Source of the DNA: Acidobacteriota bacterium | Lineage (GTDB): Bacteria; Acidobacteriota; Blastocatellia; Pyrinomonadales; Pyrinomonadaceae | Assembly (NCBI GenBank): GCA_025463135.1 | Contig: JAOAPY010000005.1 | Location: 1 to 64,000, forward strand | Direction: 5' to 3' | Length of the DNA: 64,000 nucleotides | Part shown: positions 23,848-38,025 of the stretch, piece after piece | How the letters are laid out: each line of letters starts with the position of its first letter | Numbering within the stretch: the stretch's first letter is position 1 | The notes under the pieces: model-generated | The model's input: the letters and a program-made list of their open reading frames with translations, nothing else | What the model was told of the DNA's origin: nothing | The model's database searches: none | Made by a program: the position numbers and the translations under genes

Positions 23848-24424
23848 AGGGGAGTGGCCCGACGAAGCTGATCGGTTGCATCCGCCGATCCGATTGGAGA
23901 TATCTCGCGGCTTTCATAGAAGCAGTTAATTCGGGTGGAGCATTGCCACAACCTCGCCCGGTTGCAAAGACCTCTCCGCACTCAACAACTAGCGAGGCTG
24001 CGCCTCAGACCGACAAGATTCCTTTGCGTGCTTGGCGTCTTTGCGGGACGCTCTTCACTGGCGACAAAAGAATTTCCCGCAAAGATGCAAAGCACGCAAA
24101 CAATGTTCGACTCAAAACTTGACTCACTTGCATCCAGTCTTACGCTACAAGGATTCTAGCGACGAAGATTCCGTCCAGGCAGCTTTGAGTAGTTCCCCAA
24201 TGTCCCGCTGAACCGTCGCTGCCGAAATCTAAAAAAAGGGCAGTGCGATTTCGCGCACCACCTTGAAGGGTCTTTCCCCGTCAACTCCTTCCAACGGAGT
24301 TCACCCTCGAATGGGCCCGTGAATGCGAGGTTTATATGCTTGCGTTGGGAGCAAGTCAATGGCGGTGGCAAAGCCGGTTGCCTGCTTCGCTGGCACACTC
24401 GCGCATGCTAGACTCAAAAGCCTT
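23848..24424. other. Interval before alaS with TTTGCGTCTTTGCG repeat pair
   Basis: The inverted pair 24023-24056 and 24079-24098 (CTTTGCGTGCTTGGCGTCTT and CCCGCAAAGATGCAAAGCAC) belongs to the same family as 17406 and 54970. No gene, T-box or other riboswitch is recognisable before the alaS ATG. Confidence 0.55.
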
Positions 24425-27400
24425 ATGACTGGAAACGAGATTCGCGAAAAATTCCTTGAATATTTTGAAAGGCACGGCCATACGCGTGTGCGCTCGTCAC
24501 CCCTTTTGCCGGCCAACGATCCCACTCTGCTGTTCACCAACGCGGGCATGAACCAGTTCAAGGACGTCTTCCTCGGCCTGGAAAAACGCGACTACGCGCG
24601 CGCGGTTTCGTCGCAAAAGTGCGTTCGCGCGGGCGGCAAACACAACGATCTTGACGAAGTGGGAAAGACGGCGCGCCATCAGACTTTTTTCGAGATGCTC
24701 GGAAATTTTTCGTTTGGGGATTACTTCAAAGAAGACGCTATCAAGTTCGCCTGGGACTTTCTGATCAATGAGCTCAAGCTCGATCCCGAGCGTCTGTGGT
24801 TCACGGTTTTTGGCGGCGACGACGAAGTTGCCGCGGATGATGAAGCCGCCGCCCTCTGGGAGAAAGTCGGCGCCCGACCCGAACGGATTCTGCGCTTTGG
24901 ACGCAAGGATAATTTCTGGCAAATGGCCGAGACAGGTCCCTGCGGTCCCAACTCTGAAATCAATTACTACCTCGGCGAGCATCCCGAAGATCCTGAATTC
25001 AACCGTGCTGATCTTGTGAATGGACCTGGCGATACGACGATGGAGATCTGGAACCTGGTCTTCATGCAATACAACCGCGTGGAGGTTGAGAAGGGACAAT
25101 ACAGACTCGAGCTGCTGCCAAAGCCGTCGGTCGATACCGGCCTGGGTTTGGAACGCACGGCGGTAATTCTGCAAGGTAAGTTTTCAAACTACGATACCGA
25201 TCTGATCCGGCCGATCGTCGATTTCACGGCGCAGCTTGCAGGACGCGATTACGAACCGGAAACGCAGGAAGGTTTTGCGATGCGTGTGATTGCGGATCAC
25301 GCGCGGGCGACTGCTGTTCTGATCGCGGACGGGATTTTGCCAGGGAATGAAGGTCGGAATTATGTGCTGCGAAAAATCATGCGGCGCGGTATTTATCAGG
25401 GCCGGCACACATTGGGTTTTAACGACAACTTTTTTTACAAAGTGAGTGACTTCGTCGTCGATCAGATGAGCGGGGCTTATCCGGAACTGGAAGCACAACG
25501 CGGTTTTATTGAGAAAATGGTTAAGTTGGAGGAAGAGCGGTTTGGATCGACGTTGACTATTGGGTTGGAGAAACTACACGAACTTATCGGTAGAGACTCC
25601 AGCAAAACGTTTGGCTTGGATCCTCAAGAACTTGTCAGACTCTATGACACCTTCGGCGTTCCGATCGATCTGATGTACGTGATCATGTCTCAAGAAGGGC
25701 ATGAGATCAGACCCTTGGTGAGCATTCCGGGTGCCTTGCCCTACAGACCAAAACTTCGAGTTGGTGAAGATATTCTTGAAGAGGACTTTAGAACAGGAAT
25801 AGAGCACTTGGTACAGCAACTTCAACAACAAAAGACAGCTGGGCAAAAAACCAAAGGCCGTCCCGCGTATGTTGCTTCGTCAACCGCTCCACCTCCGTCA
25901 ACAGTGGCCGAGTGGATCGAACAGAAGATGGAAGAGATAGGGATATCACAGCTCACTCAGGCTGAGATTATTCTCAAGAATGGGGGTACGCATACGCTGT
26001 CGGACGGGGATGACCCGATCTCAAAAACACCCATGTCAGAAGTCACTAGCATTTCGTTTAGACAAAGCGCCAAAGCTGCCGGAAGAATCGGATCGGAACA
26101 CCGCGCCAGAGCTATGCAGGCAATTCGGGCAACAAAATTCCGGGGCTATCAAACGACGTTCGTTTACGATACGCGAGTCCTTTTTTTGATTGAGGCAGGC
26201 GATGAAGTGAAAGAACTGAGTGAAGGTGACGAAGGTGAAGTCATACTCGATCAAACCCCGTTCTACGCTGAGAGTGGTGGACAGGTTGGTGATGTCGGGC
26301 GTCTTGTCGGTACCGCCTCCGTGAGGGGGCGGGTTGGCGACTCGAACCCACCCGCTACCGCAGGTGGTACTGACTTCAGTGCGGTGGTGGTTGATACTTA
26401 TTCGCCGGCTCAGGGTTTGATTGTTCATAAGATCAAAGTCGAAAAAGGAACGTTGAAAGTTGGCGACACTGTTACGGCTGAAGTTGATGTCGAGAAACGG
26501 GATGCGACGCGGCGGAATCACACGGCGACACACTTGATGCATGCGGCCTTACGCGAAGTGCTGGGCACTCACGTCAAGCAGGCCGGTTCAGTCGTCGCGC
26601 CCAACTACCTGCGCTTTGACTTCACGCACTATCAACCATTGACCGCGGCGGAAACGGAAGAAATCGAGCGGCTGGTCAACTACCACATCCTGCGCAACGA
26701 GCCGGTCCAGACAAACGAGATGGCTGTCGAAGAAGCGATGCGTTCGGGCGCCATGGCCCTGTTCGGCGAAAAGTACGGCGAGAAAGTGCGCGTGCTTTCC
26801 ATCAACGGCGCGGAAGGAATCTTTTCCAAAGAACTGTGCGGCGGCACGCACGTGCGCGCCACGGGTGATATCGGCGTCTTCAAAATCGTGAGCGACGAAT
26901 CAATCGCCTCCGGCGTGCGTCGTATTCGCGCCGTCACCGGCATCGATGCCTACGAACGCTTTCGCGAAGACGAACTGCTGATCGATCAGGTCGCGAGCAA
27001 CCTGCGCACTTCGCGCGCGGAGTTGCCGGTCGTGATTGGCAAACTCCAGGATGAACTAAAGAAGGCGCGCCGCGAAGTCGATGAGTTGCGCCAGAAAATC
27101 GCGAGCGGCGCGAGCAACGCCTCGGCAAACGGGGACGAAGTACGCGAGATCGCCGGCATCCGTGTGCACGCGCGCGAAGCCAGCGGTCTTGACTCAGCCG
27201 GCATGCGCCAGCTTTCCGATACCTTGCTGGCGCGTATCAAGTCCGGCGTGGTCGTGCTCGGGCGCAGCAGCGACGGCAAGGCTTCGATCATCGTGCGCAC
27301 TTCGCCCGATGTGGCCGGGAAGGTCCCCGCCGGTCAGGTGATCAGAGAGCTCGCGCCGATTATTGGCGGCAAGGGCGGCGGCAAACCCGATATGGCCGAG

Positions 27401-27487
27401 GGCGGCGGCAACCAGCCTGAAAAACTCGGCGAAGCGCTGAACGCGAGTTACGGTGTGATTGAGAAGCTACTAAGCCAGGCGGGCTGA
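24425..27487 (+). CDS. alaS: Alanyl-tRNA synthetase, unusually long
   Basis: Attaches alanine to tRNA-Ala and edits mischarged Ser and Gly. The ATG at 24425 starts MTGNEIREKFLEYFERHGH, the normal N-terminus. Class II motifs are clear (FTNAGMNQFKDVFLG, RHQTFFEMLGNFSFGDYFK, DTGLGLERTAVIL). Editing-domain zinc ligands are visible as NHTATHLMHAAL and LCGGTH. The C-terminal domain ends GGKGGGKPDMAEGGG. At 1020 residues it is about 140 longer than most bacterial enzymes. Roughly 100 extra residues lie between LYDTFGVPIDL (about 408) and FRGYQT (about 572), in a more AT-rich stretch, and a further repeat-encoded segment (SNPPATAGGTD) lies at about 640-651. Confidence 0.96.
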   Translation: MTGNEIREKFLEYFERHGHTRVRSSPLLPANDPTLLFTNAGMNQFKDVFLGLEKRDYARAVSSQKCVRAGGKHNDLDEVGKTARHQTFFEMLGNFSFGDYFKEDAIKFAWDFLINELKLDPERLWFTVFGGDDEVAADDEAAALWEKVGARPERILRFGRKDNFWQMAETGPCGPNSEINYYLGEHPEDPEFNRADLVNGPGDTTMEIWNLVFMQYNRVEVEKGQYRLELLPKPSVDTGLGLERTAVILQGKFSNYDTDLIRPIVDFTAQLAGRDYEPETQEGFAMRVIADHARATAVLIADGILPGNEGRNYVLRKIMRRGIYQGRHTLGFNDNFFYKVSDFVVDQMSGAYPELEAQRGFIEKMVKLEEERFGSTLTIGLEKLHELIGRDSSKTFGLDPQELVRLYDTFGVPIDLMYVIMSQEGHEIRPLVSIPGALPYRPKLRVGEDILEEDFRTGIEHLVQQLQQQKTAGQKTKGRPAYVASSTAPPPSTVAEWIEQKMEEIGISQLTQAEIILKNGGTHTLSDGDDPISKTPMSEVTSISFRQSAKAAGRIGSEHRARAMQAIRATKFRGYQTTFVYDTRVLFLIEAGDEVKELSEGDEGEVILDQTPFYAESGGQVGDVGRLVGTASVRGRVGDSNPPATAGGTDFSAVVVDTYSPAQGLIVHKIKVEKGTLKVGDTVTAEVDVEKRDATRRNHTATHLMHAALREVLGTHVKQAGSVVAPNYLRFDFTHYQPLTAAETEEIERLVNYHILRNEPVQTNEMAVEEAMRSGAMALFGEKYGEKVRVLSINGAEGIFSKELCGGTHVRATGDIGVFKIVSDESIASGVRRIRAVTGIDAYERFREDELLIDQVASNLRTSRAELPVVIGKLQDELKKARREVDELRQKIASGASNASANGDEVREIAGIRVHAREASGLDSAGMRQLSDTLLARIKSGVVVLGRSSDGKASIIVRTSPDVAGKVPAGQVIRELAPIIGGKGGGKPDMAEGGGNQPEKLGEALNASYGVIEKLLSQAG
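26345..26374. repeat. 30-bp repeat inside alaS, identical to 47-76
   Basis: The 30 bases add exactly ten codons (part of SNPPATAGGTD) between two beta strands of the region before the editing domain. The noncoding copy at 47-76 has no mismatch. Confidence 0.92.
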
Positions 27488-27828: not shown

Positions 27829-28278
27829 CTAAATCTCAACCCGCTCTCGTTCAGCACTCGTGCCCATATCCAGAAACTTTCGCCGGTATCTTCCCTCGGG
27901 CATCATGCAGCTGTCGAACTTTCCAAATACGCTGTAGCGATTGCGCGCGACTACTTTGTAGATCGCGTCGCGCAAAAATCGCGGCAAGACTTTGCCGACA
28001 ATCGCCAGGCTCCAAATCCCACCCAACGATCTTCCCAGCGAGAGGATCGCATCGGAGCGTGCCAGCAACCTCTCGTCAGGCTCATCGTAATTTACGACGA
28101 CATAAACTGTGTCCAGATCGTGCGGGTTGGCCCCGTGACGTTTCAGAATGCCGGCCGTAAAGTCGCTTTGCAGTGAAGCAAAGCGCAACCGGTCGCGCTT
28201 ATCTCTTTTCAAAAGAAACTGCACGAGCCGGTTACAGAGACCGCAAACGCCATCATAGAGAACGATTGGATTAGACAT
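27829..28278 (-). CDS. DCC family protein (DUF393, thiol-disulfide oxidoreductase-like)
   Basis: The ATG at 28278 has GAGGTAAGC before it. The 149-residue protein has the DUF393 signature at its N-terminus, VLYDGVCGLCNRLVQFLLKRD, containing the CGLC thioredoxin-like cysteine pair, and the C-terminal YKVVARNRYSVFGKFDSC block typical of the family. DCC proteins are predicted oxidoreductases with a thioredoxin-like fold. It is the last gene of a minus-strand group and is separated from the upstream epimerase by a repeat element (28319-28392). A second, divergent DCC gene occurs at 30100. Confidence 0.88.
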   Translation of the reverse strand: MSNPIVLYDGVCGLCNRLVQFLLKRDKRDRLRFASLQSDFTAGILKRHGANPHDLDTVYVVVNYDEPDERLLARSDAILSLGRSLGGIWSLAIVGKVLPRFLRDAIYKVVARNRYSVFGKFDSCMMPEGRYRRKFLDMGTSAERERVEI

Positions 28279-28318
28279 GCTTACCTCGTGGCCGATGTTG
28301 ACCCGGTGTGGCAACAGG

Positions 28319-28403: not shown

Positions 28404-29351
28404 TTACCTCGTGGCGCACCAGCGCAGGTCCTCGAGTCCGAATGCTCCAGGCTCCGGCAAGCCATTGCGAATTTGCTCGTCCGTGAATTTCCGTGTAGGC
28501 ATCAGGTCATAGGGTAGTGCATCGCACGGCAGGGCCGATTCAGTTACTCCTTCAGACAAGATGCGTACCTGGGCCCGCGCGACCAGCGGCACCGTCATGG
28601 TCCATTCGCACACACGCGCCAGCAGGTAATGAAACCAGATCGGCGCACGCACCATGCGTATCCTCTTTCCAGTCACGCGCGCTACTCGGCGGACAGCTTC
28701 ACTCAGCAGAAGTTCTTCAGCGCCGGTGACGGCCACCGTCTTTTGCGTCATTCTGCCGGCCACAATTGCAGCGCGCATGATAACAATCAGATCTTCAATG
28801 GCCAGCGGGCGAATACCCTTTTCCTTCATTCCCACCATGGCAAAGAGCGGGAAAGTATAGAGCGCGTGGCTCAGGTGGTCCAACATGTGATCGCCGCGGC
28901 CATAGACCATGCCCGCGCGGATGATAGTGTAATCAAGCCCGGAGTGTCGCACGATTTCTTCCGCGGTCCATTTTGATTCGTGATAGGGCGAGCCGCAATT
29001 GGCGCGCGCGCGCAGGAAACTCATCAGCAGAATTTTCTTTACTCCGGCTTCCCGGGCCGCCGCGACAACGTTCCTGGTCGCCTCGACATGTACTCTCTGG
29101 TAAGTCTGTTGGCCCAGTTCACGATTAATTCCGGCGCAATGGGCCACGACGTCGCAACCGGCAAACGCGTTCGTTAAAGAATCTACACTTGAAAGATCGG
29201 CGCATACAAAACGAGCGCGCGTTCCAACCTCAGCATCTTTAGCTGCTCGCTTACCGCGACCGAGCAGCACGACCTCATGGCCTTCGGCGGCGAGTCGCTG
29301 CGCCAGATGGCCGCCAATGAATCCTGTTCCACCTGTAATTGCAATTCTCAT
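28404..29351 (-). CDS. NAD(P)-binding atypical SDR / NDUFA9-like epimerase family protein
   Basis: The 315-residue protein opens with the Rossmann motif IAITGGTGFIGGHLAQRLAA (GxxGxxG) right after the ATG at 29351, and continues with VLLGRGK, DVVAHCAGI and SPYHESKWTAEEIV in place of the classical YxxxK. This is the layout of the complex I NDUFA9-like atypical SDRs. It probably binds NADP(H) and acts as a reductase, epimerase or assembly factor; the substrate cannot be told. It is 18 bases downstream of the tetR-like gene and belongs to the same operon. Confidence 0.86.
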   Translation of the reverse strand: MRIAITGGTGFIGGHLAQRLAAEGHEVVLLGRGKRAAKDAEVGTRARFVCADLSSVDSLTNAFAGCDVVAHCAGINRELGQQTYQRVHVEATRNVVAAAREAGVKKILLMSFLRARANCGSPYHESKWTAEEIVRHSGLDYTIIRAGMVYGRGDHMLDHLSHALYTFPLFAMVGMKEKGIRPLAIEDLIVIMRAAIVAGRMTQKTVAVTGAEELLLSEAVRRVARVTGKRIRMVRAPIWFHYLLARVCEWTMTVPLVARAQVRILSEGVTESALPCDALPYDLMPTRKFTDEQIRNGLPEPGAFGLEDLRWCATR

Positions 29352-30099: not shown

Positions 30100-30465
30100 T
30101 TATTTGCTGAGTCCCGTCACGCGGCCGATCTGATAACGGTTCTGCGAAATAAGCGATACCACACGTCGCGTGGTCGGCAACAGTTCCGGAGAAGAAAGGC
30201 GGTAAGCCCATTCGCGATACTGCGACAGCGACCATAACACCATCAGCCAGGCCTTCGGCCCCATATAAACCTGGCCCTGTTCCCCGATCACCGTCAAATC
30301 CGACGCTGTCAGATCGTGATCGAGATAGGGATAGCGATGGCGCGCCTCTTCAGACTTGCACGGCACGAAGACCAGTTCCACGAGCTTGCGCTGTTGCCCC
30401 AGCCAATCGTGGGCCCGCCGGCATAGTCCGCACTCGGGATCGTAAAGCACGGTTAGGGCGGACAT
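30100..30465 (-). CDS. DCC family protein (DUF393), second copy
   Basis: A 121-residue protein with the signature VLYDPECGLCRRAHDWL at residues 5-21 (CGLC pair) and IGEQGQVYMGPKAWLMVLW in the middle, as expected for a short DUF393 protein. It begins 3 bases after the stop of the membrane protein at 30469, so the two are surely co-translated. It is divergent from the DCC protein at 27829, suggesting different partners. Confidence 0.87.
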   Translation of the reverse strand: MSALTVLYDPECGLCRRAHDWLGQQRKLVELVFVPCKSEEARHRYPYLDHDLTASDLTVIGEQGQVYMGPKAWLMVLWSLSQYREWAYRLSSPELLPTTRRVVSLISQNRYQIGRVTGLSK

Positions 30466-30468
30466 GGC

Positions 30469-30876
30469 TCAAGCCTCCCGCACCTTTGTGAAGCCGTCGG
30501 GCGGCACCGGCGGCGGTCCGTTAACCAGACTGGCGCGGCGGCGCATGCGGCTAAAGATGAACAGGTTGAAAAAGTGCATGCCGCCCAGCACGATCAAGAC
30601 CATTCCTACCTTCACCGACAGGGCTTCGATACCATCCTGCGTGGTGCCGATGTTGTAACCAAGTTTCAAGGCCAGGCTGACATAGCCGAAGTTGATCAGG
30701 TAAAAGCCGACTACGAGCAAGTGATTGACCGAATCGGCGAGCGCCTCGTTGCCGTGAAAAACATCCACCAGAAACACGCGACCGTTCTTATGCAGCGTGC
30801 GCGCGACCCAGATGGTCAGGGCAATGCTTATCGCCAGATAGATCAGGTAAGCGTAAGTGGTCATCCCAGTGTCCAT
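30469..30876 (-). CDS. Small integral membrane protein, first gene of the TetR operon
   Basis: The ATG at 30876 follows GGAGGAGG. The 135-residue product has three hydrophobic segments (YLIYLAISIALTIWVARTL, SVNHLLVVGFYLINFGYVSLAL and VGMVLIVLGGMHFFNLFIF) and a proline-rich cytoplasmic tail. HGNEALADSVNHLLVVG looks conserved. No family is recognised. Expression is controlled by the promoter and operators immediately upstream. The pairing with a DCC protein suggests a membrane redox or lipid role, by inference only. Confidence 0.85.
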   Translation of the reverse strand: MDTGMTTYAYLIYLAISIALTIWVARTLHKNGRVFLVDVFHGNEALADSVNHLLVVGFYLINFGYVSLALKLGYNIGTTQDGIEALSVKVGMVLIVLGGMHFFNLFIFSRMRRRASLVNGPPPVPPDGFTKVREA

Positions 30877-30897
30877 GATGTGCCTCCTCCAAGAGTT

Positions 30898-30975
30898 TTG
30901 AACACGTTCAAGTATCAATACGCAGGTTACTCTCCTCTTGTTCCGCCCGTCAAGGAATTTTTTGAACGTGTTCAG
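30898..30975 (-). promoter_or_regulatory. Promoter bracketed by two TetR-type operators
   Basis: Two near-palindromes, TTGAACACGTTCAA (30898-30911) and TTGAACGTGTTCAG (30962-30975), flank a minus-strand promoter with -35 TTGACG (30953-30948) and -10 TAACCT (30929-30924) spaced 18 bases. The downstream operator ends 21 bases before the start codon at 30876. The TetR gene lies in the same operon. Confidence 0.75.
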
Positions 30976-31067: not shown

Positions 31068-31170
31068 AGGTAGAGCCTTACCGCACTGGGCGGCGGCAAA
31101 GCCGCGAGAACGAAGAACGAAGAACCAAGTACAAAGAACCAAGTACAAAGAACCAAGTACAAAGAACAAC
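31068..31170. repeat. GCCTTACCGCACTG repeat and 14-bp tandem array
   Basis: GCCTTACCGCACTGGGCGGC with GGCAAAGCCGC (31074-31108) recurs at 42728-42763. It is followed by a tandem array of AAGAACCAAGTACA with about three full units (31118-31165). Confidence 0.8.
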
Positions 31171-31236
31171 TAACCACTGATTTCTAAACGCGGCACATTT
31201 TTCATCACTCGTCACTGACGGTGTATGATGCTCACC

Positions 31237-32247
31237 ATGCAAAACAAACAGATCGTATTGGTCAGCCGGCCGGCCGGCACTCCCTCGATGGAGAACTTTC
31301 GGATTGTCGACACTGAGGTCCCACAGCCAAAAGATGAAGAAGTGCTGGTGCGGACCCTGTATTTGTCCGTTGATCCGTACATGCGCTCGCGTATGACTGA
31401 TCGCAAATCGTATGTCGATCCGTTCGCCCTCAACGAAGTCATTTCCGGCGGCGCCGTCGGCGAAGTAATCGAATCCCGCTCTGACGCTTTTCAGTCGGGA
31501 GAAATCGTCACGGGCATGCTCCCCTGGCAGCTGTACTCTGTCGTTAAAGCCAGGGGACTACACAAAATTGATCCGGCCCTGGCCCCGATAACGACGGCGT
31601 TGGGTGTCCTCGGAATGCCGGGCCTTACGGCCTACTTCGGTCTTCTGGATATTGGCAAGCCGAAAGAGGGCGAGACCGTCGTGGTCTCAGGCGCTGCAGG
31701 GGCGGTCGGTACGATTGTTTGCCAGATTGCCAAAATCAAAGGCTGCCGCGTAGTTGGCATTGCCGGCAGCGACGAGAAGAACCAGTATCTCAAAGACCAG
31801 CTGGGCGTGGACGCGACGGTCAACTACAAGACAGCCGAGTTGAAACTGGAGTTGAGAAAAGCATGCCCGAATGGGATAGATATCTATTTCGATAATGTTG
31901 GCGGCGAGGTCTCTGACGCAATCATGACGTTGATCAATCACGGCTCGCGAACGATCCTTTGTGGGCAGATCGCCTTATACAACCTGGAAAAGCCCGCTGT
32001 TGGTCCGCGTATCCAACCTTATCTGTTGGTCAACAGCGCGTTGATGCAGGGTTTCATTATTACCGACTACGCAGCGCGATTTGGTGAAGGCGTCGGGCAA
32101 CTCGCACAGTGGCTGCGAGCCGGTAAGCTGAAATACGCCGAGAATATTATCGAAGGCTTTGAGAATACGCCGCGCGCTTTTCTGGGATTGTTTACTGGAG
32201 AGAACCTGGGCAAACAGTTGGTGAAAGTAGCGGACCCAAAGGGTTGA
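31237..32247 (+). CDS. Zinc-independent MDR-family NADP-dependent oxidoreductase (CurA/PTGR-like)
   Basis: A 336-residue medium-chain reductase without the structural or catalytic zinc cysteines. Visible are LYLSVDPYMRSRM and the coenzyme motif VVVSGAAGAVGTIVCQIAKI, then RVVGIAGSDEKNQYL, DIYFDNVGGEVSDAI and GSRTILCGQIALYN. This set is typical of the NADPH-dependent 2-alkenal, curcumin or prostaglandin reductase group, which reduce alpha,beta-unsaturated carbonyls. The chosen ATG is 31237; ATG at 31225 is also in frame. It is read divergently from the TetR operon. Confidence 0.9.
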   Translation: MQNKQIVLVSRPAGTPSMENFRIVDTEVPQPKDEEVLVRTLYLSVDPYMRSRMTDRKSYVDPFALNEVISGGAVGEVIESRSDAFQSGEIVTGMLPWQLYSVVKARGLHKIDPALAPITTALGVLGMPGLTAYFGLLDIGKPKEGETVVVSGAAGAVGTIVCQIAKIKGCRVVGIAGSDEKNQYLKDQLGVDATVNYKTAELKLELRKACPNGIDIYFDNVGGEVSDAIMTLINHGSRTILCGQIALYNLEKPAVGPRIQPYLLVNSALMQGFIITDYAARFGEGVGQLAQWLRAGKLKYAENIIEGFENTPRAFLGLFTGENLGKQLVKVADPKG

Positions 32248-32461
32248 GTCTGCCTGGGACTGCACGCAGCCTGCGTGCTAACGTTCCCGAAGAGGCAGCT
32301 GACCTCGAAATGTTTATCTTCCGCGGGATTAGCACGCAGGATGCGTGCGGTCCCAGGTTCGGCGTCGCGCGCGGATCGCTTTCCACAGCTTCCTCATGCG
32401 ACTTTTCGATTTGTTAGAGATAGTTTTATTCATTGGACTCTCGTTTGAAACAGGCTGAATG
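32248..32461. repeat. Inverted pair of the GGGACCGCACGCATCCTGCG repeat
   Basis: Copies at 32254-32279 (CTGGGACTGCACGCAGCCTG) and 32331-32356 (inverse) bracket a small interval. No gene is supported between 32248 and 32461. Confidence 0.75.
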
Positions 32462-32757: not shown

Positions 32758-32784
32758 CTGGGACCGCACGCATCCTGCGTGCTG
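32758..32784. repeat. Noncoding copy of the 27-bp repeat found in truB
   Basis: Identical over 27 bases to 21811-21837. It lies in the 191-base interval between the small gene at 32462 and the kinase stop codon. Confidence 0.9.
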
Positions 32785-32877
32785 ACATTCCCAAAGAAGC
32801 AATTGACAGTGAAATGGTTGTCTCACCCAGCGATCAGCATGCTGGAAGCGTGTGGTCCCGGATGGTGTGGGGTGAAA

Positions 32878-35800
32878 CTACGGAATCGTTCGTTCGGTGC
32901 CGCGCAGCAGATCTTCAAACCGGGGATCGGATCGCAGTGCTTCCAGGTGTGGATCTACCCGCACGAAAGTGAATCCCACGGCATGCTCGCGTTCAGCCTG
33001 CGAAAGCCAGCGAAAGGCGCTGTCGCTATCACCCAGCAGGGAATAAATGATCGCAATCTCATAGGCGGTTACCCACTGCTCATGTCTTTGGCGAAGAATC
33101 GTTTCCAGAATGACCTGAGCTTCTTCGTGCCTGCCGATGGCAGCCAGAACGTGCGCCCGTTTGGCCCGCGTGGTCGGAGTATCGCCGGCAAAACTTCGCT
33201 CCTGTTCAAAGGCCGCCAGAGCTTCGTTGGGCATGCCCTTTTTCTCGTACGCCCAGCGCAGGATGGTGTGCGCGGCGACTCCACCCGGATCCAACGCCAG
33301 CGCTCTCTGACACTGTTGAATCGTGTCGTCGAAGCGTCCGGCGAGGAACAGCACGTTGGCGACAGCGGTGGCCAGCACTGGTGACTGCGGTGAAATCTCA
33401 CGCGCGCGTTCGATCTCGGCGGCGGCTTCGTCGTGCCGGCCCATAGCCGATAAGCTATACGCATACCAGCGGTGCGCGACCTGGATACTTGGCTTCAGTT
33501 GAATTGCTTTGCGTAACTCTCGTTCGGCGCCATCCCAATCGCGGTCGAAATGGAGATGAACGAAACCCAGCGAGGCATGCGCCTCAGCCAATTCCGGATC
33601 TGCTTCCACGGCCCGGAGGGCGTATTGTTTGGCACGCTGCCAGGCTCCGGACGGCGGTGGTTCGACATACCAATTCAAGAGTGCGTAACAGTCGGCAAGT
33701 TCAGAATGAGCGAGGGCGAAGGTCGGATCGAGTTCGACCGCGCGCTCCAGTCGTTCGATTGCCTGGCGCATGCCTTCGGCCGATCGCCGCGTAGCGTAAT
33801 AGCGACCGGCTGTATACAACTGGCGCGCTTCTTCGTTGCCGCCGGGATCGGTATCCGGCGTGGGATTCAGTGCCGGGGCTGTTTCAATTGTGCTCCTGAG
33901 ACTCACCGATCGCCGTTGCGGTGTGGCGGCGGCAGCGACACCAATACCGGCCTTGCGGCCCGCGCCCGGGTTTCTTGTCTTGCTCACAAGATCTTCAAAC
34001 TCCGGATCACCCCGCAGCGAATCGAGCTGCGGCTCCACGCCCAGCCACACCAACCAGCCTTCATTGATGGTGTAAGCCTCGCGCAACAATGCGAGTGCGG
34101 GTTTGCGTTCTCCCATTAACAGATGAATCAGCGAGCGGTGATAGGGCGAGACATAGGAACGCGCGGACATCTCGTGCAAGCGACTGAGCGCCGCGCGCGC
34201 GTCGTCGTGACGCCCGGCTGCTGCATAAGCCGCGCCCAGGCAGGCAACGAACATCTGACCGCCGCTGGATGCGTCCAGGGCTTTCTCTGCGACCCGGATC
34301 GCCTCGTCAGGGTTGCCGGCTTGCCTCAGCGTCCAGGAGAAAGTTGACAGACCGTAGGCAAAGTCCGGAACAGCCTCCAGCATATTTCGATAGGTCGTAA
34401 TTGATTCTTCAAAGCGTCGCGCCTGGTAGTAAGCCCAACCCAGTCCCTGCATGATATTGGCGGAAAGCGGATCAAGTTCGCGGGCCCGCAATAACTCTCT
34501 CAGGGCTTCATCAAAGCGGCCCTCCATTAAAAGATGAAAGCCGTACCAGTGATGCCCGGTTGCATAATTCGGATTGATCTCGATTGCCCGACGGTGCTGT
34601 CCTTCGGCGACGGCCCAATCAAAGTCATGGCACACGGTCGCAAACCCGAGCGCGCTATAAGCTTCCGCCGAGGTGGGATCCAAATCGACGGCCCGGCTCG
34701 CCGCCCGCTTGGCGGCCGCGGAGCACTCGGCAAATGGCTTGATACCAAAGACACCGAGCCAGTTGTAATAATCAGCGATGCCGGTGTAGGCCAGAGCATA
34801 GTCGGGATCGAGTTCGATGGCGTGGTTGTAGCATTCGAGCGCCCTGGCAAAACCGGATTCGGTATAACTGTTCCAGTAGTAACGACCGCGCAGATAAGAC
34901 TCGAACGCTTCGGAACTGTCGGTGCCGCGTTTGGAAAGCTGGTGCTGCTCATCGCGAGTCAGCTGCGGCAACAGGGCCGTCGCGACTTGCTCCGAAATCG
35001 AATCCTCAATCTGCAACACGTCCGTGGAATCTTCATCAAACTGCTCCACCCAACGAGTAACACCTTCGTTGACGCTCAAGAGTTGCGTCGTCACGCGTAA
35101 GCGATTTCCGGCGCGCCGCAGGCTGCCGTCAATAATGTAATCCACACCCAGATCTTTACCCGCCACAAAAGGATCGACCGTGGCGCCGCGGTAACGCAAC
35201 ACGCTGCTGGTGGGACGCACGATCAATCGCTGCACATTACTAAGACGTGTGATCAGCGCATCAGTCAGGCCGACCCCGAGGTATTCATCACCGGTGTTTT
35301 CCAGCGGCGAGCTGAGCACCCTGAAAGGCAGCACGGCGATCGACTCCTGACCGGCGCGTATTTGAGCAGGCAGGGTTGGCAATGCCGCCAACCGGTGGTT
35401 TAGCTTGCGCAGCAGATCGTTGAAACGAGGATGCCCGTGCAACGGGTCGAGTTCCGGATCAACACCGATCCAAAGCACCTTTGCGTCCCGGGTCTGCTCT
35501 GCCTGTTCCAGCAGATCGAGCGCCCGATCGATTTGGCCCAGCGCACAATTGACCAGCGCCAGATGATACGGCGAAATATAGCGACGCTCAGAGATGGCAT
35601 CCATCTCGCTCAGAGTCGCTTCGGCAGCTTCGCTGTTGCCGGCCTGCGCCTGCGCCGAACCCAGTCGGGCGAGTGTGTGACTGGCCTTGCCCATCAGGTC
35701 AACGCAACGCTGGGCCGCGGCCACGGCTTCTTCGTATCGTCCCAGCCGGCCCAACAAAAAACTCGCGCCATAAACCATAAGCAGGTTCTGCGGCTCGTTC

Positions 35801-38025
35801 TCAATGGTGTCGCGACACAGTTCATAAGCCTCGTCATACCGACGAGAGTGGTAAGAGCACCAGACCACGGTAAAACGCGAGATGACGGCCAGCGGATCCA
35901 GATCGCGCGCCAGGTATGCTTCCCGCAGACTCTCGGTAAAACGGCCCTCCATTGCCAACTGTAAGGCGTAATAGATGCGCGCCGTTGAATAATTGGGATT
36001 GAGCTCAATGGCATGCAGGAGCTGCCGCTCGGCATTGGCCCAATCAAACTCGTGGCAGAGTATGGCCTGGCCCAGCGCTCCATGCCCTTCAGCCAACGCC
36101 GGATCGATTGATACCGCCGTCGCTGCTGCTTCATAGGCCGCGGCCGAACATTCAGAAAACGGCATGACACTGAAACTGCCCAGCCAGTTGTAGTACTGCG
36201 CCACTCCCGCATAGGCGACCGCATAGTTGGGATCGAGCGCGATGGCCTGGTGATAACAGACGATCGCCCTGGCAAAACCATCTTCAGTAAAAGTGTTCCA
36301 GTAAAAGCGTCCTCGCAGGTATGCCTCATGTGCCTGGGGATCGTTCGTGCCACGCTTGGCTAATTTGCGGCGCTCATCACCAGTCAACTGCGGCACCAGG
36401 GCCTCTGCTACATTCGCTGAGATTGCGTCTTCCAGACTCAACACGTCAGTGAACTGCTCGTCAAACTGTCCGGCCCACACAGCGGTGCCGTCGCCCACGT
36501 TGAGCAATTGGACCGTTACGCGGATCCGATCTCCGACCCGGCGCACGCGGCCGTCGAGCACAAAGGCCGTACCCAATGCCCGCCCCGCTGCCAGGGGGTC
36601 CGACTCTCCGCCATAACGCAGGACACTGCTGGTGGGCCGCACTTCAAAGCGTCGAATCCCACTCAGTCGCGTGATCAGCGCATCGGCCAGGCCGGTACCC
36701 AGATAGTCGGGAGCTGAATCACTCCCATCGTGCATGTCCAACAATTTCAGAGGCAGCACGGCCAGAGAGTTTTCCGTGGTGAGGTGTTCAGTGCGCCCGT
36801 GCCAATCACCAAAAGGCGCCGCCGGCAGATCGGACACCGGGCGGCCTTCCAAATAGCTCGTGAGGTCGTCGCGCAATTGCTCCGCCGACTGATAGCGCCA
36901 TTCCGGTTCCTTGCGCAGCGCCCTCATCACGATGTTATCGAGGTCGCCGGTAAACTCGCGTCGCAGTGATTCGAGCGTCGCTTTGCGCGCCGTATACAGT
37001 TGCTTGAGAGTAGTAGCCTCGTCTCCGGAGTAGGCCGCGGGCAACAAATCATCAGAGCGCGTGATGATGATACTGAGCGGCGCGGGTGGTTCTTCGCAAA
37101 TCACCCTGGCAATTTCATGTGGGGCGCGATTGCGCAAGCGGTAAGGACGATGCCCGCTCAACAGCTCATAAAGCAACACACCGAGAGAATAGACATCGGT
37201 ACTGGGGGTCGTCGGATCGCCCTGCACTTGTTCCGGCGAGGCGTACTCAGGTGTCATCAAACGCATGGCCGTGGCGGTCGGATCGTGCGTGATATCGCCG
37301 GCCAGATCGGGATTTAGAAGTTTAGCGATGCCGAAATCGAGCAGCTTCGGGGCTCCTTCCGCGGTCACCAGAACGTTGGATGGCTTTATATCTCGATGCA
37401 CCACCTGTTTCTGATGAGCGTAATGAACAGCGTCGCAAATTGCCCGGAACAGTTTGAGGCGTTCGCCAATACTTAACTGATGGTTATCGCAGTAGCGGTA
37501 CAGAGGCTCGCCTTCGATGAACTCCATGACGAAGTAGGGCAAGCCGTCATCGGTCGTGCCGCCGTCCAGCAGGAGGGCAATGTGCGGGTGGTCCAGGGCA
37601 GCGAGGATTTGCCGCTCTTTGCGAAAACGTCGCAAAATAAAATCGGTGTCCATGCCGCGCTTAACCAGCTTGATGGCTACCCGCTTGTTAAATTCGCGGT
37701 CGACGCGCAGTGCTTCATAGACGGCGCCCATGCCGCCGCGGCCAATCTCGCGCTCGATGCGATAAGCGCCCAGCCGCCTTCCGATCATGGGATCGATATC
37801 TTCAAAGGCAAGCGTTTCCAGCACAGGTATCGCGGTTTGACCGTACAAGTTCTCTTCGAGGAGATCGCCGGCGCTTTCGTGCTGCGCCAGCAGCGTTTCT
37901 ACTTCCTGTCGCAGAGTTTCGTCGTCAGCACACGCCTGACACACGTACTGGTCACGTTCCGTGGGTCCGAGGTCCAGCGCCGCCTGGAAAATCTCTTCAA
38001 CTTTTAGCCAGCGTTCGGGGGTCAT
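32878..38025 (-). CDS. Giant Ser/Thr protein kinase with two TolB-like domains and three TPR modules
   Basis: A 1715-residue cytosolic protein without a membrane helix. Residues 1-75 form the short helical leader (RWLKVEEIFQAALDL) common to this family. The kinase domain (about 88-395) has IGRGGMGAVYEA, the catalytic loop HRDIKPSN (about 213) and DFG. Module 1 (about 420-885) is a TolB-like domain (SLAVLPLKLLD) plus TPRs ending WIGVDPELDPLHGHPRFNDLL. Module 2 (about 895-1370) repeats it (SIAVLPFRVLS) and ends WLGVEPQLDSLRGDPEFEDL. Module 3 (about 1400-1715) has TPRs only and ends FVRVDPHLEALRSDPRFEDLL. The ECF sigma gene 290 bases upstream is the expected regulator or substrate partner. Confidence 0.93.
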   Translation of the reverse strand: MTPERWLKVEEIFQAALDLGPTERDQYVCQACADDETLRQEVETLLAQHESAGDLLEENLYGQTAIPVLETLAFEDIDPMIGRRLGAYRIEREIGRGGMGAVYEALRVDREFNKRVAIKLVKRGMDTDFILRRFRKERQILAALDHPHIALLLDGGTTDDGLPYFVMEFIEGEPLYRYCDNHQLSIGERLKLFRAICDAVHYAHQKQVVHRDIKPSNVLVTAEGAPKLLDFGIAKLLNPDLAGDITHDPTATAMRLMTPEYASPEQVQGDPTTPSTDVYSLGVLLYELLSGHRPYRLRNRAPHEIARVICEEPPAPLSIIITRSDDLLPAAYSGDEATTLKQLYTARKATLESLRREFTGDLDNIVMRALRKEPEWRYQSAEQLRDDLTSYLEGRPVSDLPAAPFGDWHGRTEHLTTENSLAVLPLKLLDMHDGSDSAPDYLGTGLADALITRLSGIRRFEVRPTSSVLRYGGESDPLAAGRALGTAFVLDGRVRRVGDRIRVTVQLLNVGDGTAVWAGQFDEQFTDVLSLEDAISANVAEALVPQLTGDERRKLAKRGTNDPQAHEAYLRGRFYWNTFTEDGFARAIVCYHQAIALDPNYAVAYAGVAQYYNWLGSFSVMPFSECSAAAYEAAATAVSIDPALAEGHGALGQAILCHEFDWANAERQLLHAIELNPNYSTARIYYALQLAMEGRFTESLREAYLARDLDPLAVISRFTVVWCSYHSRRYDEAYELCRDTIENEPQNLLMVYGASFLLGRLGRYEEAVAAAQRCVDLMGKASHTLARLGSAQAQAGNSEAAEATLSEMDAISERRYISPYHLALVNCALGQIDRALDLLEQAEQTRDAKVLWIGVDPELDPLHGHPRFNDLLRKLNHRLAALPTLPAQIRAGQESIAVLPFRVLSSPLENTGDEYLGVGLTDALITRLSNVQRLIVRPTSSVLRYRGATVDPFVAGKDLGVDYIIDGSLRRAGNRLRVTTQLLSVNEGVTRWVEQFDEDSTDVLQIEDSISEQVATALLPQLTRDEQHQLSKRGTDSSEAFESYLRGRYYWNSYTESGFARALECYNHAIELDPDYALAYTGIADYYNWLGVFGIKPFAECSAAAKRAASRAVDLDPTSAEAYSALGFATVCHDFDWAVAEGQHRRAIEINPNYATGHHWYGFHLLMEGRFDEALRELLRARELDPLSANIMQGLGWAYYQARRFEESITTYRNMLEAVPDFAYGLSTFSWTLRQAGNPDEAIRVAEKALDASSGGQMFVACLGAAYAAAGRHDDARAALSRLHEMSARSYVSPYHRSLIHLLMGERKPALALLREAYTINEGWLVWLGVEPQLDSLRGDPEFEDLVSKTRNPGAGRKAGIGVAAAATPQRRSVSLRSTIETAPALNPTPDTDPGGNEEARQLYTAGRYYATRRSAEGMRQAIERLERAVELDPTFALAHSELADCYALLNWYVEPPPSGAWQRAKQYALRAVEADPELAEAHASLGFVHLHFDRDWDGAERELRKAIQLKPSIQVAHRWYAYSLSAMGRHDEAAAEIERAREISPQSPVLATAVANVLFLAGRFDDTIQQCQRALALDPGGVAAHTILRWAYEKKGMPNEALAAFEQERSFAGDTPTTRAKRAHVLAAIGRHEEAQVILETILRQRHEQWVTAYEIAIIYSLLGDSDSAFRWLSQAEREHAVGFTFVRVDPHLEALRSDPRFEDLLRGTERTIP

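Follow-up and report, generated by a model that had tools for sequence, protein, structure and literature searches.

Twin palindromes flanking the promoter of a membrane protein-DCC-TetR operon are candidate autoregulatory operators recurring in several bacterial phyla

In the analyzed window, a stretch of 64,000 nucleotides from an Acidobacteriota genome, five minus-strand genes encoding a small membrane protein (MEM), a DCC1-like protein (DCC1), a TetR-family regulator, an atypical SDR and a second DCC1-like protein (DCC2) follow one another behind a promoter region that carries two 14-bp palindromes, O1 and O2 (Table 1). This gene content had been proposed in an initial annotation of the DNA and was found to be right by family matches. 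The gaps between the genes were approximately 3 nt (MEM-DCC1), 10-13 nt (DCC1-TetR), approximately 18 nt (TetR-SDR) and approximately 89 nt (SDR-DCC2), and a single operon is likely because these gaps are short. DCC2 matched PF04134 with 94.4 bits (cut-off 27.8) and kept the CGLC motif. In the TetR protein, the HTH domain PF00440 and the C-terminal ligand/dimer domain PF17931 (TetR_C_23) were found with 64.8 and 84 bits (cut-offs 24 and 29.1), respectively. There was no other full-length TetR of the same family in the genome, in which the next matches reached 55 bits over approximately 100 residues.

Table 1. Positions in the window of the operon genes and of the elements of the promoter region
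Feature	Positions	Strand	Basis
MEM, small membrane protein, 135 aa, three long helices predicted	30469-30876	-	no Pfam or NCBIfam family
DCC1, DCC1-like thiol-disulfide oxidoreductase, PF04134, CGLC motif	30100-30465	-	55.6 bits, cut-off 27.8
TetR-family regulator, PF00440 + PF17931	29370-30089	-	start GTG 30089 or ATG 30086
Atypical SDR (NAD_binding_10 / Epimerase), accessory, some relatives only	28404-29351	-	family match
DCC2, second DCC1-like protein, PF04134, accessory	27829-28314	-	family match
Candidate operator O1 (distal, upstream of -35)	30962-30975	.	TTGAACGTGTTCAG on +, CTGAACACGTTCAA on -; sequence; kept upstream of homologous operons
Candidate operator O2 (proximal, around or just downstream of expected transcription start)	30898-30911	.	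TTGAACACGTTCAA on +; sequence; kept in relatives
-35 element TTGACG	30948-30953	-	sequence; -35-like hexamer at similar place in relatives
-10 element TAACCT, 18-nt spacer, weak consensus match	30924-30929	-	sequence
Ribosome-binding site AGGAGG, 6 nt before ATG	30883-30888	-	sequence

The structure model of MEM showed three long helices (pLDDT 80, pTM 0.58), and no close solved fold was found in a fold search. The MEM profile gave a weak sequence match (E 5e-4) to the C-terminal part of the rhodopsin in PDB 5jsi, and in this alignment the rhodopsin lysine stands opposite a nearly invariant lysine of MEM. Kinship of MEM with rhodopsins was rejected, as no rhodopsin was present among the Foldseek matches, none at E <= 0.001. 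An anti-phage defense system was ruled out, since none of the five operon proteins matched the PADLOC defense models. Upstream of the operon, a gene for a CurA-like NADPH-dependent reductase (31225-32247, plus strand; 430 bits compared to a cut-off of 440) starts approximately 250 nt from O1 and points away from it. By eye, a short tandem repeat of GAACCAAGTACAAA units was seen upstream of this gene (31110-31165), and two similar stretches (32253-32320 and 32758-32830), beginning CTGGGAC(C/T)GCACGCA..CCTGCGTGCT, are perhaps a dispersed repeat. Further on, 32878-38025 of the minus strand encodes a 1715-aa protein that looks by eye like a Ser/Thr kinase carrying a long repeat region.

Read along the minus strand, O1 (30975-30962) is followed by the -35 element, an 18-nt spacer, the -10 element, O2 (30911-30898), AGGAGG and the ATG of MEM (30876-30874). 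The initial annotation had described two near-palindromes bracketing a promoter; the sequences and coordinates were borne out for this minus-strand promoter, and the term is a fair one, as O2 is completely symmetrical except for its two central bases and the symmetry of O1 is broken at one more base pair. When the 6.48 Mb genome was searched for exact matches to the pattern TTGAACRYGTTCAR, only O1 and O2 were found, and the backward control pattern had no match. The 12-base core TGAACNNGTTCA occurred six times in the genome compared to four times for its control and approximately 4.6 expected, so that a single core means little. The expectation for two cores within 100 bases was approximately 3e-4 per genome. 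Chance palindromes are ruled out by this paired-core expectation together with the uniqueness of the exact pattern and the empty backward control. None of the other four cores in the genome is a promoter site: long open frames contain the cores labeled C2, C3 and C36, and an ORF of 1054 aa (24323-27487) contains the remaining one, at approximately window position 24549. Elsewhere in the genome, a 14-bp site with one mismatch was found three times, each time within a long open frame. A larger regulon in the same genome found no support in these sites, and with no pointer to further targets the regulator therefore looks local. Across relatives, 90 sites gave the consensus TTGAAC[AG][CT]GTTCAA, with A/G then C/T at the center and a run of A on its 3' side; the core columns of this motif do not vary because the search required them.

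The promoter of the window is weak by consensus. It was not listed by a simple sigma-70 scan, and its score was not above that of shuffled sequences (p 0.33); of 39 strict site pairs, 15 had promoter scores above shuffles (p <= 0.05), the window not being among them. Support for it comes from relatives, in which the placement of a -35-like hexamer is kept: in 27 of the 39 strict pairs, the distance from the start of O1 to the start of this hexamer is 20-23 bases, and 22 of these 27 have TTGACA or TTGACG there (counted from the table of loci). In six actinomycete loci, the best -35 was TTGAAC, which is part of O1, and a TA-rich hexamer follows it after 17 nt. In both promoter layouts, O2 lies within approximately 20 bases after the -10 element in most loci.

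When relatives of MEM were collected, the operators were found to follow the TetR gene. Among 103 MEM loci with at least 200 nt of upstream DNA (one locus, L061, was dropped for too little upstream sequence, and another, L035, which a contig end cuts, had no scorable MEM), an operator was present upstream in 46/46 loci with a TetR gene downstream of MEM and in 0/57 loci without one. When one truncated locus and three contigs that had been counted twice were removed, the counts were 44/44 and 0/56, respectively. At least two strict sites were present in 39 of the 44 TetR loci. With one mismatch allowed, every TetR locus had two or more sites except L075 and L080, which had a single site each, and none of the TetR-less loci had two or more. 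A palindromic operator at the regulator's own promoter, the arrangement looked for in the TetR family, was thus found through co-occurrence, which strongly supports the self-regulation by TetR that had been proposed for this operon. The initial annotation had named loss of the operators in relatives that retain the operon as evidence against its reading; when relatives were searched, no such loss appeared, the operators being absent only where the TetR gene was absent.

MEM relatives were found in 18 of 297 Acidobacteriota genomes searched, the genome of the window included, and paired sites were present in 14/14 loci of the phylum beyond the window that had MEM, TetR and readable upstream DNA. 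Two loci (L023 and L025) had MEM without TetR and without sites. A GTDB scan gave 408 MEM relatives, of which the best 80 by similarity were kept. According to the record titles, TetR-bearing and TetR-less loci are both present within Acidobacteriota and within Planctomycetota, and the association holds in each. Phylum alone therefore does not explain it. On the best MEM tree, TetR and the operators need 11 changes each. This tree is poorly resolved, its supported branches forcing one independent TetR/operator pair only, and phylogenetic independence of the gains or losses is not proven.

Acidobacteriota, Planctomycetota and actinomycetes share the order operators-MEM-(DCC)-TetR. Of the five-gene set first described, MEM-DCC-TetR stood as the conserved core, whereas the SDR and the second DCC are present in some loci only. 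Of 100 loci, 72 had a DCC gene no more than 2.5 kb downstream of MEM, with CxxC in 69 of these 72; among 44 TetR loci, 11 lacked DCC. Where DCC and TetR were both present, DCC was always between MEM and TetR (33/33). When 198 genomes of the phylum of a Frankiaceae bacterium (by record title; G396, the genome of L075) were searched with the TetR profile, seven strong matches were found, G396 included. The six other matched genomes, found through TetR alone, have the same arrangement, with MEM, DCC and TetR in turn behind twin sites 45-46 bases apart. The sole exception found to strict co-occurrence, outside the table of 103 loci, is a Streptomyces cynarae plasmid (L173, 4920-4978), in which both operators stand before MEM-DUF393 and the annotation of the surrounding 10.4 kb shows no TetR (within approximately 5 kb). 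A TetR encoded elsewhere could serve this copy. An IS5 transposase lies just downstream on the plasmid.

In Verrucomicrobiota and others, a MarR/GbsR-like regulator stands in the place of TetR. Its gene was found upstream of MEM in 24 TetR-less loci, immediately adjoining in most. The protein scored just under the cut-off of Pfam MarR_2, and the label GbsR-like is our own reading. The dyad TTTCA-N8-TGAAA was present beside the MarR/GbsR-like gene in 21 of these 24 loci, twice or more in 18, compared to 0/44 TetR loci and 2/32 loci with neither regulator; in shuffles, any dyad occurred in at most three loci. In several loci, L097, L057 and L100 among them, TTTCAGN6CTGAAA dyads were seen both before the MarR/GbsR-like gene and before MEM. 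The MEM module would thus be controlled by either of two unrelated regulators that have separate sites.

The paired operator pattern was found in 15 of 396 Acidobacteriota genomes and the backward control pattern in 0/396, among the genomes listed. In one genome (G339) the sites precede a standard operon outside the first MEM list. In three others they precede an SRPBCC membrane protein gene followed by TetR (G059), an ArsR-AHSA1 gene pair plus a membrane protein gene (G241), and the gene for a membrane protein without Pfam match followed by that of a phospholipid-methyltransferase-like protein (G188). Genes of lipid type, namely SRPBCC/polyketide-cyclase-like, fatty-acid desaturase, MBOAT and epimerase genes, are near some copies of MEM or of the sites. 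The operon may conceivably have an envelope or thiol-redox function, although we put this at somewhat less than an even chance; the term membrane redox system in the initial annotation derives from the name of the DCC family. Our best guess is a thiol response of the membrane or envelope that would be induced by a hydrophobic ligand. A tentative alternative, which we consider possible, is that the operon serves the metabolism of lipids or hydrophobic compounds, with TetR sensing a lipid-like effector on which the SDR and the SRPBCC partners would act. The lipid-type genes that share paired sites or neighborhoods point in this direction, as do the lipid genes that KstR controls from a similar operator in the available part of its description (PMC1995591). 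However, each lipid-type neighbor occurs in few loci, and DCC, mostly with CxxC, is the commonest partner of MEM.

As judged from the DNA, TetR is very likely an autorepressor of MEM-DCC1-TetR-SDR-DCC2, its dimers blocking the promoter at two sites. A TetR homodimer would bind each 14-bp palindrome, and with O1 just upstream of the -35 element and O2 at or just past the transcription start, bound dimers would exclude RNA polymerase. A small, probably hydrophobic ligand on the C-terminal domain PF17931 would cause the dimers to leave, so that the membrane protein, the DCC protein of thiol-redox type and more repressor would be made. The outcome would be a response at the membrane that can be induced and that limits itself. 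Very probably, such a self-controlled switch is present in several phyla.

Repression through looping or cooperative contact between dimers at O1 and O2, in place of independent blocking, is unlikely. Two sites are the rule (39/44), and their spacing clusters at 45-46 and 53-62 with a phase signal over 39 pairs (R 0.34, p approximately 0.01). This signal was lost when pairs under 49 bp were left out (31 pairs, p 0.18), and the spacing is mostly 45 to 64 across relatives. It is still less probable that TetR is an activator or a dual regulator, with O1 recruiting the polymerase and O2 limiting TetR itself. The place of O1 just upstream of -35 could be used by an activator and the promoter is weak, but the position of O2, at the expected start site or shortly past it, and the actinomycete -35-like TTGAAC inside O1 both favor steric exclusion. 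That the palindromes belong to another DNA-binding protein, TetR regulating something else, is very improbable: the S. cynarae plasmid keeps the operators with no TetR annotated nearby, but they were present in 46/46 loci with a TetR gene and 0/57 without it, and the motif matches a TetR-dimer site in size and symmetry, like the 14-bp KstR palindrome in the available part of its description (PMC1995591).

The predicted kind of regulation is ordinary TetR autorepression. Classical TetR is an autoregulated repressor with two operators in its own promoter region, and the same arrangement is predicted here; the difference is that there is no efflux pump, the output being a small membrane protein and a DCC protein. 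According to the available part of the KstR report, a dimer of this mycobacterial TetR-family regulator binds the 14-bp palindrome TAGAAC(N2)GTTCTA (PMC1995591). The KstR operator, TnnAACnnGTTnnA, resembles the sites described here in its length and AAC-N2-GTT core, and dimer binding, autorepression and a site at its own promoter, all predicted here, are KstR features in the same source (PMC1995591). In contrast, the flanks are TAG/CTA in KstR and TTG/CAA here, and KstR has a large lipid-degradation regulon compared to one local twin-site operon. With 38.9 bits compared to a cut-off of 280 in the NCBIfam KstR model NF033703, the TetR is not a KstR equivalog. A full-length relative with a solved structure is PDB 3c07, a putative TetR-family regulator that scored 261 bits with the TetR profile and 471 bits over 232 residues with the actinomycete TetR of L165, which comes from an operon of the same layout. 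No operator or ligand for 3c07 was stated in the sources found. We take 3c07 to be SCO4850 of Streptomyces coelicolor. In the available parts of the literature found, SCO4850 appears within tables. The two DCC proteins resemble the DCC1-like thiol-disulfide oxidoreductases (PF04134) in scoring above the curated cut-off and carrying CxxC, by which they would belong to this family, and differ in being paired, under regulation, with a three-helix membrane protein.

In the literature searched, outside which most subscription journals lie, no paper was found that names the operator strings, TetR_C_23, PF04134 or 3C07 together with TetR, or that reports the pairing of DCC with a three-helix membrane protein, and nothing relevant was found for DUF393 or DCC with TetR or operon. 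The initial annotation could match the gene set to no described system, and likewise none was found in this literature. In the available part of a heliorhodopsin paper, DUF393 is one co-transcribed gene among others.

Of interest are how widely the arrangement is conserved, the exchange of the regulator and the uncharacterized membrane-DCC module. MEM-DCC could be an undescribed, widespread membrane thiol-redox module that needs gated expression, for which phyla chose two unrelated dedicated repressors with cognate dyads (TTGAACRYGTTCAA for TetR and TTTCAGN6CTGAAA for the MarR/GbsR-like regulator) and for which the signal would be hydrophobic and membrane-damaging, a proposal that we regard as rather doubtful. 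The findings provide a predicted operator for a TetR subfamily with a solved structure (3c07) for which no site or ligand was found in the literature searched. They also describe a predicted regulon that spans phyla and centers on a family of membrane proteins for which neither Pfam nor NCBIfam has a model, and two unrelated regulators before the same MEM-DCC module.
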